Below, in pieces: positions 58,201 to 64,000 of a DNA stretch of 64,000 nucleotides (position 1 is the stretch's first letter; every line of letters starts with the position of its first letter). The notes under the pieces were generated by a model. The model saw only the letters and a list, made by a program, of their open reading frames with translations, was not told the origin of the DNA and made no database searches. Position numbers and translations under genes: made by a program. Source of the DNA: Sodalis endosymbiont of Henestaris halophilus (GTDB taxonomy: Bacteria > Pseudomonadota > Gammaproteobacteria > Enterobacterales > Enterobacteriaceae); assembly GCF_900161835.1 (NCBI RefSeq), contig NZ_LT897836.1, positions 744,001 through 808,000 of the forward strand. The letters are read 5' to 3'.

Positions 58201-59161
58201 TAATGCTATAAAAATTAAAGAAAGATAACCATGCTATAAACAGTTAGGTATGAGTGTTTAGTATTAGTTAACACTTAATTAAATTCAAGCCTCACAGAGG
58301 CGAAGATTACCAGGATGTTGGTGCAGTGCGAAATCAGTAGATGAGATAGCCACAATGTGGGTATGCATCATTTTTTAGGTTAAAAGCATAAAATTAAGTC
58401 GTAAGATAAGTATGAATAAATTAGGAGATAAAATTTTGCTACATGCATTATAACATAGGTCACAACCGTTTTTATAGTTACCGCGATACCTGTAGATAGT
58501 ATTTTATAGAGTGTCATCTGCATGATCTGTATGATTTTACAAGAAATTAATTAGCAAGCATAATACTTTTCAAATTTTCTTCTATTAAAAACCAACAAAA
58601 TTATTGTAAAGAGTCAGTAATTTATTTCTAATAGATGCCAGATAGATTTTATCTGAATAAGAAGAATATAAGCAGCTATTCTCAGAAATTAATAATTTGT
58701 TAAATATTTTAACATATTCTTATGCAGGTTATAAGTAATGTTTTACATTAATTACTTAAAATTTAAGCTAGTTATGGTTGTAATAGCTAAACACATACTT
58801 ATTAAAGTTAGGCATCTATTTTCATTATAAGTATTTATGTCTAACAGCATAATTTTCTAAAATTTTTATACCTCACCGTTGATAGTTAACATTTATTATT
58901 AAAGCATTATGCCTTTGATGAATAAAACAAAATGCAAATAAAACAAGATGATTAATAATCAATATGTTTTTATAAAACCATGCAATTTTGTGAATTATTA
59001 GTAATAAAGATAACTTGCACTAATCGATCATAATTAATACTAAATAGTTATTTTAATAACTAAAGTTTAATTAGCACATAATTTTATTTAATCAAATAAA
59101 TAACATATGAGGCTGTTCGTGCATGTAGTGATAAATAGTTATGTTAGCGTTAACGCTAACT
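55201..59161. other. 4-kb A+T-rich spacer between ycgL ghost and dsbB
   Basis: Ancestral neighbours would be ycgM and ycgN on the plus strand; I could not read them. No intact gene or tRNA was found. One clear hairpin is listed (57457-57480) and a weaker one, CTGCTCAT/ATGAGCAG at 57698-57721. Confidence 0.55.
57457..57480 (-). terminator. orphan terminator-like hairpin
   Basis: GTCGTGCTTT pairs perfectly with AAAGCACGAC (ten bp) around a four-base loop. On the minus strand the next bases are CTTTTATT, a modest T-run, so it reads as a minus-strand terminator. The nearest minus-strand gene, dsbB, ends 1.7 kb away, so its owner is unknown: a decayed gene or an unrecognised small RNA. Confidence 0.6.
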
Positions 59162-59719
59162 TTAGTGAGGTGCTATGCTCTTATACCTTTTAGCGGGAAA
59201 GAGGTTACGTTTGCGCGATGGGAAATATTGCGCAAGCAATATTATAGCCGCTACCAGCAAATAAGCAGAGAAAATAATAATCATCCATTGTGGCATTTCC
59301 AATGAAAGAAGATGCCATTGGCGCAAGGCGCAATCACCAGTAGGGCTAAACATCGACGGTAGCCACTTGTCCAGCGGTAGCCATGTGGGGAAATTTACGC
59401 AAAAGTCACAAGTAACGAAGGGAGAAGGATGAAGTTGAATATCAGTATGTTTCATAGCCAGCAATAGTCCTTGCCAAGAGCTATACAACCAAATTGTCAA
59501 ACCAGCGAAACGCAGCCACGTTCCAGGCATGATAGCGCCTACCAAACCGGCAGAAATGACACCATATAAAGCACAACGTTGATAAATACACAAAACGCAA
59601 GGATTAAGCATTAAAACGTGCTGAAAGTAAAGCGCTATTAGTTCCAGGATGAAGGCGGTTAGTGACAATAGTAACCAAGCCGCACGACTTTGGGAGAAGC
59701 GATTTAACGATTGCATCAT
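59162..59719 (-). CDS. dsbB: disulfide bond oxidoreductase DsbB
   Basis: Inner-membrane protein that reoxidises DsbA and passes electrons to ubiquinone. I choose the ATG at 59719 ([15 protein letters not shown] aligns with the family N-terminus), giving 185 residues (E. coli 176); an upstream ATG adds 15. Four helices. Redox pairs C41-VL-C44 (PCVLC) and C104/C130 (TCDF, GDCA) are intact; there is an extra cysteine at 107 beside C104. The C-terminus is about eight residues longer. Neighbouring nhaB is not visible. It connects to the IspB-made quinone. Confidence 0.95.
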
Positions 59720-60784
59720 ACTAGAATTATCCAGAATAGTTGTTAGCAACATATAAGAAAACATTCTAAATTAAAAACACAGATATCAGCAACTTTTTTG
59801 CCCGCTGAATTCCCGCTACTCGCACAAGTTTACTATTATTAATTGCAAGGTTATTAACTCCACGATTAGAAAAAGATTAGTGTTTGTTTGTAGATAATGA
59901 CAAACGGTATATTAGTTACGGCTCGTCAGCTATGAATAAGCTAACTTATCCTGTTTTTCCATAATTATAAAACTGCATCCCTATTAAGATTTCTTGATGA
60001 ATATGTAAATATTTATAGTTAAGATGCATAGTGTTATGCTGGTATGGCGTAAGAGTTTTTGATTAACAGAGCAATACGGGATAAATGAAGATGGTTATCT
60101 TAGAAGCATTGTTTTTAAATCAATGATGTTCTTATTGCGGCACGATAATTCTTTGATTTTAATCAATGTCACTCTCACCAACGATGCGGAAAATTTAAAA
60201 ATAACTAATCTGAGTTGACTGGTTTACCACCTAATGGTGGTAAACTAATAAGAGTAATAATCATTTAAAAAATTCTTCTTAAATACGCGAAGATTGCTTC
60301 GATTGTGCGAGTCAGCTCATAGATAATTTGTGCTCTAGATGTGTACAAATATTGTCGGGATGTTGATTATTCTAGCGGTATTGCCATATGTTGATACAAT
60401 CCAGTTATTACTTTAGTCAGGCTGGAGTGGTCGCAGATAAAACGAATGCGGATAAGTCTAATGCTTTTTACCGCATGAATTACTATATTTTCATATTTTG
60501 AGGAGTTTGCCTCAAGTAATCTCATTTACAAATTTATTTTTTAATAGCCAGAAAACTAATAATTTGCGTGCTAGCAAGCTGTTTTGCAATCTTTTACTTT
60601 ATAGTCAACAAATAGTATTATCCAACAAGGTGGGGATAGTATGACGAAGGTCATGTAGTTATGGATACGCTTCTACTGTAAAGACAATCTTAATATCTGG
60701 CGCGTTATACAACCTACTTATGCCCTAAAATATTGTGTGAGGATTTGACCTCCTGCATTTATTACCATTTGTTAAGGTGCCGCC
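59720..60784. other. spacer between dsbB and dadA ghost
   Basis: In E. coli nhaB, fadR and ycgB lie here (several kb); only about 1 kb remains, so most was deleted. No gene was recognised. It contains a perfect palindrome at 60222-60245. Confidence 0.6.
60222..60245. repeat. perfect 10-bp inverted repeat
   Basis: GTTTACCACC and GGTGGTAAAC are perfect complements around TAAT. Stable hairpin, richer in G+C than its surroundings, with no T-run on either side. It may be an operator dyad or the remains of a terminator from the lost nhaB/fadR region. Confidence 0.8.
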
Positions 60785-60990
60785 ATGAATAGGATAATAA
60801 TCGTTGGGGTAGGAAATCAAAGTATCAACTGGTATGTCAGACAATTTTTGATAGTTTTAATATTGTTAGCGGCTGTGATTTACTTAATTGCTACATGATA
60901 GGCATCAAAACTTTACTAACTGATAAATATGTTTATTTTACTACCTCCCGGATTTTGCTCTCAGTGTACAGTTGTAGTTGCGTCACGCAA
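60785..60990 (+). pseudogene. dadA: dadA (D-amino-acid dehydrogenase) N-terminal remnant
   Basis: An ATG at 60785 with TAAGG seven bases upstream opens 37 codons, MNRIIIVGVGNQSINWYVRQ followed by a hydrophobic run, which looks like a small membrane protein. It better fits the FAD-binding start of DadA, [20 protein letters not shown], with a two-residue gap. Some 40 bp after the stop, PPGF (for SPGY) of DadA appears in another frame near 60944. In E. coli dadA directly precedes dadX; here it is about 1.5 kb away after decay. Confidence 0.65.
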
Positions 60991-63796
60991 TGTCATCCAA
61001 CCTATATAGGTGTGCAGATTAACATTTTAGATCTCAATATTTAGTTTACAGAACGTACGTTCTACCGGAAGTAGAATTGCTGGGTATCTGTTTAATATCT
61101 TTTTATTATCAATAGTTATTATTTCATGATAATCTTTGTAATCTTTATTTATTGCTATTATTAAAAGGCAAAATCATGCATCACATTTGGTGATAAAATT
61201 AACTAATACAATTTTCTTCTTTAGCGTTCATTGTACGTAGCAAACTTCTCAGTTTTTAGCAAATCGCTACCAGCATATCAAGGAAACAGCAGCATTTTTT
61301 CGCCGTAGGCGATTATCAAATAAATTTAATCACATGAAATAAAGCAAAGTCTAGTCATAACTAGATGATCACGTTTTTAATATAAATTGTTGTATAGTTA
61401 GCCAGAAGCTGGTTTTTGCTGGCTTTGCAGAAATTCAAGAACAAACTAACTCCTTATATAACCCGTATCATACAAGTTATATGAGATAATAATGTATTTT
61501 AATCGTCGTTCATGACGAGAATATCTTTGCCGATAAAAAGATTAGCTAATGTTTTGCAAGTAACATGTAATATTTTTTTTGTGACTAAAGCTAAAAATAG
61601 CTCTTTTCCATAAAATATAGCAAGTTTACCTTGCTAACCTGTAGGATAGATCGTAAAAATATTTTGGCACTTTCTTTTTTCTTTTATGCGGCAGCGTTTG
61701 TCACAGATAGTTAATATATTTTACAAATATTATCCTTTAATTTTCTGACGGTAATTTCTTCTTACAACGAGATCTTATGTGGGCGTGTATTAGTATATTC
61801 TGCGACTCATTAGAACATAGCAGTAACGAAATTAGTATTTTACTAGCTTGTTTTATAACGTTTTTTGAATTTAGTAATATAATTTGACAAGCAGCAGTCA
61901 GAGAGTCAACGATTGTGTGCGCATGCAGCCTAACTATAAAAAATAATTGTTTCAAAAATTAATTATGAACTTAACACGTATGAGCTATGCATAGCGTCTG
62001 CATAATTATAGTGCTTATTTTAATGGGATAAGCAATGCAATAAAATTGGAGTAAATCACAATTAGGCCAAGACCTATTGGCTGTTATTATGACTTACTTT
62101 GTTTCCATAAACGTTTTATTAATTGATTAGTTAATATAATTGACAAACATATTCACGTTCATCTTAAGGAATATTAATATCTAGTCTATTATGGTTAATA
62201 GACCTAATAATAGTTCATGGAGATATAAATAGATAAAATTTTTCTTTAGTTAATCGCATATTATATGTAGAAATCTGTGATTGTTTATTCATAGATAATC
62301 GTCATGAGAGATTATAAGTTATCTCTACAAGCATAACAAAATTAAACTGTCCGACTTATTAATTAAGTCTTGGTGCACAATAAAATTGTAATAAATATTT
62401 AATATGTTATTGATCTTTTGGTGTTGCACTAAATATCCGGCTGATTTACTTAATACTATTGGTTATGATGTAATTAATTACAGTTTAATTATAAAGACAT
62501 CATTATCGAATAATTATTAATTAACATCTGTTTATTTGATGCTTTGAATATATTAAAAGCTTATCAAAATAACTAGCATTTATCAATGCATAATATAAAG
62601 AGAGGCAAGATGCCGTTTTATTCTTAGGATATTTAAGCTCAAAGCTATGACATGAATATTTGTATTACCCGCGATAGTAATTTATCATAGGGCATGATGA
62701 TATGAAATAACTATGCTAGATTTGGCATAGCTTTGCGCAATTATGTCAATGATAAACATGATAATTTTAATAAAATCCGCGTAGTTTGTTTAGTCTAATA
62801 TAGTTTAATTGCTTGAAAGCACGCGTAACTTAATTAGTATTTGCCATAAAGATCGTCTTTTAATATTGTAAGTATTTTACTAATGAATAATCTATTAAAG
62901 ACCCAAGAGGTATTTCGTGCTTGCCCGTGTAGAAATAATTATTTTTATTATTGTAAACTAACTAATTAATTAAAGTTTATTATATAGCTCGCTAGCAAGC
63001 GTAACTAATAAGTTTTCTTGTTTATACTTGCCGAATAATTAAATCAAAGATTGTGAATTATTTGCTTGCTGTGTGCTCTGTTATATTAATAGCTAGAAAA
63101 ACGTAGCATGTGTTTATAATTATCAAATCTGTGTATTTCTATATTAAAGTATTCTACTGACGACGAAAATACGTTTGCGAAATAGTATGCAGTGCTGCCT
63201 ATTTAATATTAGCTGAGGATCGTATCCTACCCAATTCTAAAGGGTGTATTACCTAGTTTTGTTTATAGCCTAAAGTCATAAAGAGGCATGCGTTTATGAT
63301 CTCACTGTTAGATTATCAGGGCACGCTGTATTGCATGTACTGTATAAAATCTACAAAGGCGCAATTACCTGCTTCTATTGCCCTTATCTTTAGCAGAAAT
63401 AAGACAATAGAAGCAGGTTCATTACTGAGTTTCTGCTGAAATATTGCTTTATGATGTGCGATATATTTTGTACCAGTAGCATTCCATTTAATATATGACT
63501 TTTAAATTGGCTCAAATCTATGATACTGTATAGTATCATCAATAGTAGGATTTAATGGTGAGGATCTCAATTTTTTTGATTTAATACTGTTTATAGTTTA
63601 TTCTAGTCTAGATAGTGTAATCTACTTAGTAGATTCTTCTGATGTAGATGATCAGTTAGCAGTTAATTAATATTTTTATTACGAACTATTCAGCGCGTTT
63701 ATACTCTTGGTGTTAATTTCGTCACTGTTACCGTGACAGTAAGTTAATAGTGCGCGCACGCGCATCCGTTTCTATAGAGGCAAGGAGCTTGTTTTT
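60991..63796. other. spacer between dadA remnant and dadX
   Basis: The rest of dadA should be in the left part but was not readable. No intact gene or tRNA. It contains the striking hairpin at 63367-63418, an 8-bp dyad ATGATACT/AGTATCAT at 63520-63539, and a small hairpin GTCAC/GTGAC about 60 bp before dadX. Confidence 0.6.
63367..63418. repeat. 14-bp perfect inverted repeat with nested stem
   Basis: ACCTGCTTCTATTG (63367-63380) pairs perfectly with CAATAGAAGCAGGT (63405-63418). Inside it CTTAT pairs with ATAAG around CTTTAGCAGAA. This is the most stable simple hairpin noticed in the non-coding DNA. It lies 380 bp before dadX, with no T-run on either side. Confidence 0.85.
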
Positions 63797-64000
63797 ATGC
63801 CACGTCCGATTGTCGCTATAGTAGATTCCACTGCGTTAGCTTCTAATTTAACTGTTGTCCGCCGGTATGCACCGCATGCACGTATATGGTCTGTAGTGAA
63901 AGCCAATGGGTATGGCCATGGATTGAATGCTGTTTGGCAGGGATTGAATCAGACAGACGGTTTTGCATTGCTGGATCTTAATGATGCGGTCGTGTTAAGG
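63797..64000 (+). CDS. dadX: alanine racemase DadX (5' part; runs off the window)
   Basis: PLP enzyme interconverting L- and D-alanine. ATG 63797 with AAGGAG nine bases upstream; 68 codons lie inside the window, all open. It starts [28 protein letters not shown] carries the PLP-binding lysine K35. It is nearer to catabolic DadX (TRPIQASLDL, TDGFALLNL) than to Alr. With dadA dead next door, it cannot serve the D-alanine catabolic pathway and probably supplies D-alanine for the cell wall. The window edge hides the rest, so intactness is unproven. Confidence 0.9.

Follow-up and report, generated by a model that had tools for sequence, protein, structure and literature searches.

The window analyzed here is a stretch of 64,000 nucleotides (C1:744001-808000) of a shrunken symbiont genome assembled as one contig of 1,622,395 bases (1.62 Mb; 99.97% complete), with insect symbionts as its nearest named relatives. 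Its right-hand end carries the start of dadX, which lies downstream of ghosts of ycgB and dadA, reproducing the E. coli order ycgB-dadA-dadX (Table 1).

Table 1. Features at the right-hand end of the window (window coordinates unless stated otherwise)
Feature	Position	Strand	Remarks
dsbB, intact	59162..59764	-	Nearest long open frame upstream
ycgB ghost (SpoVR family)	61164..62159	-	tblastn 25.6% over 360 aa, E 2e-12
dadA ghost (D-amino acid dehydrogenase)	62637..63762	+	DNA alignment to G004 dadA; many frameshifts and stops
Ribosome-binding site AAGGAG	63782..63787	+	9 nt upstream of the dadX ATG; read from sequence
dadX, first 68 codons	63797..64000	+	Full gene is genome C1:807797-808867 (L002:4797-5867), 356 aa
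Codon of PLP-binding lysine K35	63899..63901	+	Within window

The dadX gene is a single uninterrupted frame of 356 codons that begins with the ATG at 63797 and ends at genome position 808867, 867 bases beyond the window edge. The initial annotation had credited it with a good ribosome-binding site and a PLP lysine, both of which we confirm (AAGGAG and K35), and the part past the window edge, where damage to the gene might have been expected to show, is unbroken through codon 356. The protein has both K35 and Y253, the latter in a GYG motif encoded past the window edge, together with the full-length domains of an alanine racemase; these residues correspond to the PLP lysine and the catalytic tyrosine, respectively, of alanine racemases, which are fold type III PLP enzymes. 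The closest PDB match among solved alanine racemases spans residues 3-347. The top NCBIfam model for the protein is DadX (NF002970), which at 582 bits scores slightly below its cut-off of 600, and TIGR00492 (alr) scores 350 bits, above its cut-off of 168. A stretch of 3.1 kb that includes dadX has 19 promoter-like matches, versus 14.9 (SD, 4.3) by chance, which is no excess over shuffles.

We placed the protein in a tree of 79 rows, comprising 77 sequences plus E. coli Alr and DadX, from which 70 of 147 candidate frames were omitted (duplicates, one fragment, and most of loci L053 to L112). The split between DadX and Alr is one branch with support of 100/97, the sides being set by closeness to either E. 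coli protein, and the window's protein falls on the DadX side, inside a nine-row Sodalis clade (support, 100/99) that Martelella (Bruguierivorax) alba adjoins. The symbiont and E. coli proteins are 60% identical, of equal length, and share the active-site motifs. By tree and gene order, the window's dadX is an orthologue of E. coli dadX; the symbiont differs in that dadA is dead and no alr is found, which leaves DadX as the sole racemase, without its operon partner.

The dadA ghost was revealed by DNA-level alignment to a close relative (G004, a 5.2-Mb Sodalis-clade genome with intact dadA), and not by protein search; a search with E. coli DadA gives no match in the window region or the whole genome. 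The alignment has 65% identity outside gaps and a score of 1193, where 200 dinucleotide shuffles give a mean of 273 (SD, 28) and a maximum of 365. It contains 72 indels, of which 58 are not a multiple of three, and 16 in-frame stops in 321 aligned codons, and the opening 182 bases of dadA cannot be aligned in the window. The description of dadA as a ghost in the initial annotation is thereby upheld. Because dadA is destroyed and nothing else in the genome matches DadA, the intact partner that defines the DadAX catabolic pair is lacking, and we have filed the gene as a DadX orthologue and not as a catabolic racemase.

The two neighbors differ strongly in how they have diverged from G004. For dadX, dN is about 0.12 and dS about 1.5, a ratio that is only rough with dS near saturation, and because of that saturation the contrast between codon positions is the safer reading of constraint: differences at positions 1/2/3 number 68/28/164 over 356 codons. 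The corresponding figures for the dadA ghost are flatter, 125/93/144 of about 350 each, and the incomplete flatness is expected if part of the divergence dates from the time when dadA was working. By this measure dadX is strongly constrained, next to a dadA that has eroded utterly. Within the dadA ghost lies a hairpin of 14 outer pairs (window 63367-63418; fold z-score, -6.5); it is present as a single copy in the genome, which rules out a repeated element. A phage collection searched with window positions 59100-64000 gave no match.

Profile searches with PF01168 and TIGR00492 each return a single match in the whole genome, and both are dadX; in the genome so searched we found neither alr nor any second alanine racemase, and the check for a missing alr proposed in the initial annotation thus comes out in its favor. 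YggS, a PLP-homeostasis protein of the PF01168 family, also seems to be missing, there being no further PF01168 match. In E. coli and in M. alba, alr sits between dnaB and tyrB; in the window's genome these two genes are separated by 134 bp with nothing between them and no alr. Similar short alr-less junctions are present in G004, G026, G060 (SoCistrobi), G061 (endolongispinus), and G065 (Sodalis Psp), and all six junction sequences can be aligned; these are all six genomes, of nine in the Sodalis clade that we examined, in which dnaB and tyrB adjoin (the G060, G061, and G065 assemblies are in several contigs each). For G062, G063, and G064, no tyrB lies within the 12 kb fetched around dnaB, no alr was found, and each genome has one TIGR00492 gene. 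All nine have DadX and none yields an Alr, including G004, where two further TIGR00492 matches (26 and 23 bits) fall far below the cut-off of 168. We infer that the loss of alr in the Sodalis group was one event.

The fate of dadA is more varied. Every one of the nine genomes has an intact dadX. dadA is intact in one of them, G004, with G060, where it is split over two contigs, counted neither as intact nor as lost. In-frame stops interrupt dadA at codon 139 in G026 and at codon 176 in G061, and because the stops are at different places these look like separate losses. There is no protein-level match to dadA in the window's genome, G062, G063, G064, or G065; DNA traces are left in the window's genome and in G065, and the dadA alignment scores upstream of dadX are within the range of 50 shuffles in G062 and G064 and barely above it in G063. 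The dadA gene of M. alba is in two pieces. Since the alr-less state is common to the clade, including G004 with its intact dadA, these comparisons place the loss of alr first, in a large-genome ancestor and ahead of genome decay, with dadA dying later and more than once. Because alr is also missing from larger-genome relatives, the arrangement is an inherited and fairly ordinary one, in which one of two isozymes was kept.

The pathway that would use D-alanine, for which the initial annotation proposed a check of ddl, murF, and the rest of the wall genes, is in place. In the window's genome murE, murF, mraY, murD, murG, and murC all score above curated cut-offs and are intact, among genes labelled rsmH, ftsI, ftsW, ftsQ, ftsA, ftsZ, and lpxC; murI is at C1:579875-580546. 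A Ddl ligase at C1:648028-649155 also scores above its cut-off. Its nearest E. coli counterpart is ddlA, it scores 395 bits against the DdlA-type gene of M. alba and 172 against the DdlB of M. alba, and it is 80% identical to one of the two Ddl genes of G004. It is the only clear D-Ala-D-Ala ligase of the genome and lies away from murC-ftsQ; ddlB is absent from that usual site, where the gap is 35 bp (G000:C1:1266646-1266682; L142:14646-14682). In M. alba and G013, DdlB follows murC, and the Martelella copy matches E. coli ddlB. None of six named Sodalis genomes has a Ddl gene in the mur cluster, and in the nine Sodalis-clade genomes every strong Ddl match that was fetched is closer to the DdlA type. 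We found no murI match in G062, G063, and G065, Sodalis-allied genomes in which MurF and DadX are both retained.

A single racemase, no alr, and the presence of ddl and mur genes together make it very probable that DadX is the source of D-alanine for peptidoglycan. DadX would turn L-alanine into D-alanine, which the DdlA-type ligase would join to D-Ala-D-Ala, and MurF would add the dipeptide to the peptidoglycan precursor. Historically, a clean deletion between dnaB and tyrB would have removed alr from the Sodalis ancestor with dadA and dadX still aboard, after which dadX could not be lost while the wall was made; dadA, which degrades D-alanine, would have been dispensable and so lost more than once. 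We hold with high confidence that dadX is the sole alanine racemase found and the D-alanine source for peptidoglycan, alr having been lost in the Sodalis ancestor and dadA later. DadX is presumably active in the symbiont cell, with its product used in the wall. The proposal in the initial annotation that DadX had been taken over as the D-alanine source for the wall is very likely right as to function; a takeover upon the death of dadA does not hold, since all nine clade genomes are without alr and dadA is intact in G004.

A different reading is that dadX has survived by chance and is merely next in line for decay, with D-alanine supplied by the host or by a side activity of MetC or GlyA. Some observations on other small genomes speak for this. 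Buchnera resembles the present symbiont in living in insects and still building a wall, according to an excerpt of PMC9116674; it differs in that, by an excerpt of PMC8689515, it has neither Alr nor DadX, and it has GlyA, which is credited with racemase activity in Chlamydia pneumoniae. We compared racemase retention with MurF in 14 other small genomes (one racemase-less genome, G048, was left out), and MurF is kept in five of the nine that are racemase-less and in four of the five with a racemase. Because racemase-less small genomes can have MurF, such bacteria can draw D-alanine from other sources, and the mixed pattern weakens any general rule that a racemase is kept where a wall is made; it does not weaken the present case, because every piece of the wall pathway that we looked for was found. 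The strong constraint on dadX next to a heavily eroded dadA, and the intact dadX throughout the clade, argue against chance survival, which we consider very improbable.

Retention of DadX for some use of D-alanine other than peptidoglycan is brought to mind by G021 (0.48 Mb; L160, L225), which keeps a DadX-type gene, yet has no MurF over the cut-off between MurE and MraY. It has no convincing Ddl either: its sole Ddl-domain match (59 bits; Pfam cut-off, 24) is partial and lies in a frame of 450 codons, resembling the weak second matches of other genomes. In the window's genome, however, MurF, Ddl, MurC, MurD, MurE, MraY, and MurG are all intact and a known use is present, so that a different one seems extremely unlikely. 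Recruitment of DadX within this lineage only after dadA had died would fit the dead dadA and live dadX seen here, but it is contradicted by the alr-less dnaB-tyrB junction in all six genomes that have both genes together, and with G004 combining intact dadA and dadX with no alr, we give it scarcely any credence.

The reading that we favor, with DadX as the wall racemase, has a direct precedent. The label of catabolic racemase in the initial annotation proves too narrow, since E. coli without alr lives on DadX, as reported in an excerpt of PMC12505980. That excerpt describes four viable double deletions of E. coli MG1655, each with a single racemase and a single ligase remaining, DadX plus DdlA among them, and cites Wild and colleagues for the finding that DadX accounts for the greater part of racemase activity in K-12; an excerpt of PMC9942566 states that alr dadX double mutants require D-alanine. 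By the E. coli precedent, DadX can serve as sole racemase. The alr ddlB double deletion in the excerpt of PMC12505980, with DadX as sole racemase and DdlA as sole ligase, has the very pair left in the symbiont; it is a laboratory construct, whereas the state in the symbiont is natural and its racemase loss would have come before genome decay. We lean, with some reservation, toward the broader view that the Sodalis lineage rebuilt its D-alanine branch on second isozymes before symbiosis: alr and ddlB would have been removed from dnaB-tyrB and murC-ftsQ, leaving dadX and DdlA-type ligases, the choice being set by the losses of the large-genome ancestor and not by host selection, and dadX, which normally sits in one operon with the gene for the enzyme that destroys D-alanine, would have come under new control. 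The locus offers a clean example of how redundancy may be resolved in genome decay, with one isozyme lost in a large-genome ancestor, the survivor becoming indispensable, and its operon partner dying.

DadX without Alr is, by these searches, common, large genomes included. Among 35 further genomes in this family, 14 have Alr and DadX, six Alr only, six DadX only, eight neither, and one fragments of both. A further 12 named genomes were chosen for carrying a DadX close to that of the window and are not an unbiased sample; 11 have only DadX over the cut-off (four Pantoea, two Erwinia, three Rosenbergiella, and two unclassified Enterobacterales), three of these with an extra match of 35 to 50 bits, below the cut-off. 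The remaining genome, a Serratia, has a second strong match, presumably Alr. All nine named Pantoea, Erwinia, and Rosenbergiella genomes are like the symbiont in having one racemase over the cut-off, of the DadX type, with no Alr, and differ in their large size (3.1-4.8 Mb); dadX is in two pieces in Erwinia piriflorinigrans. The loss of alr in these genera is probably separate from that in Sodalis, because M. alba, sister to Sodalis, keeps alr. In a literature search on dadX or alanine racemase with Sodalis, Pantoea, Erwinia, symbionts, and Buchnera, no title or abstract opening among the matches listed concerns a DadX-only Sodalis or Erwiniaceae, and the word "alanine" was not found in the main text of PMC6315101, on Sodalis glossinidius metabolism. 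The "catabolic" label can mislead annotation: in all the genomes that we examined from the Sodalis clade, Pantoea, Erwinia, and Rosenbergiella, DadX is the sole racemase found and thus presumably biosynthetic. G031 (L155, L187), a 3.7-Mb member of the family, is also DadX-only, with about 0.8 kb and no alr match between dnaB and tyrB, and its loss of alr is probably a separate event.
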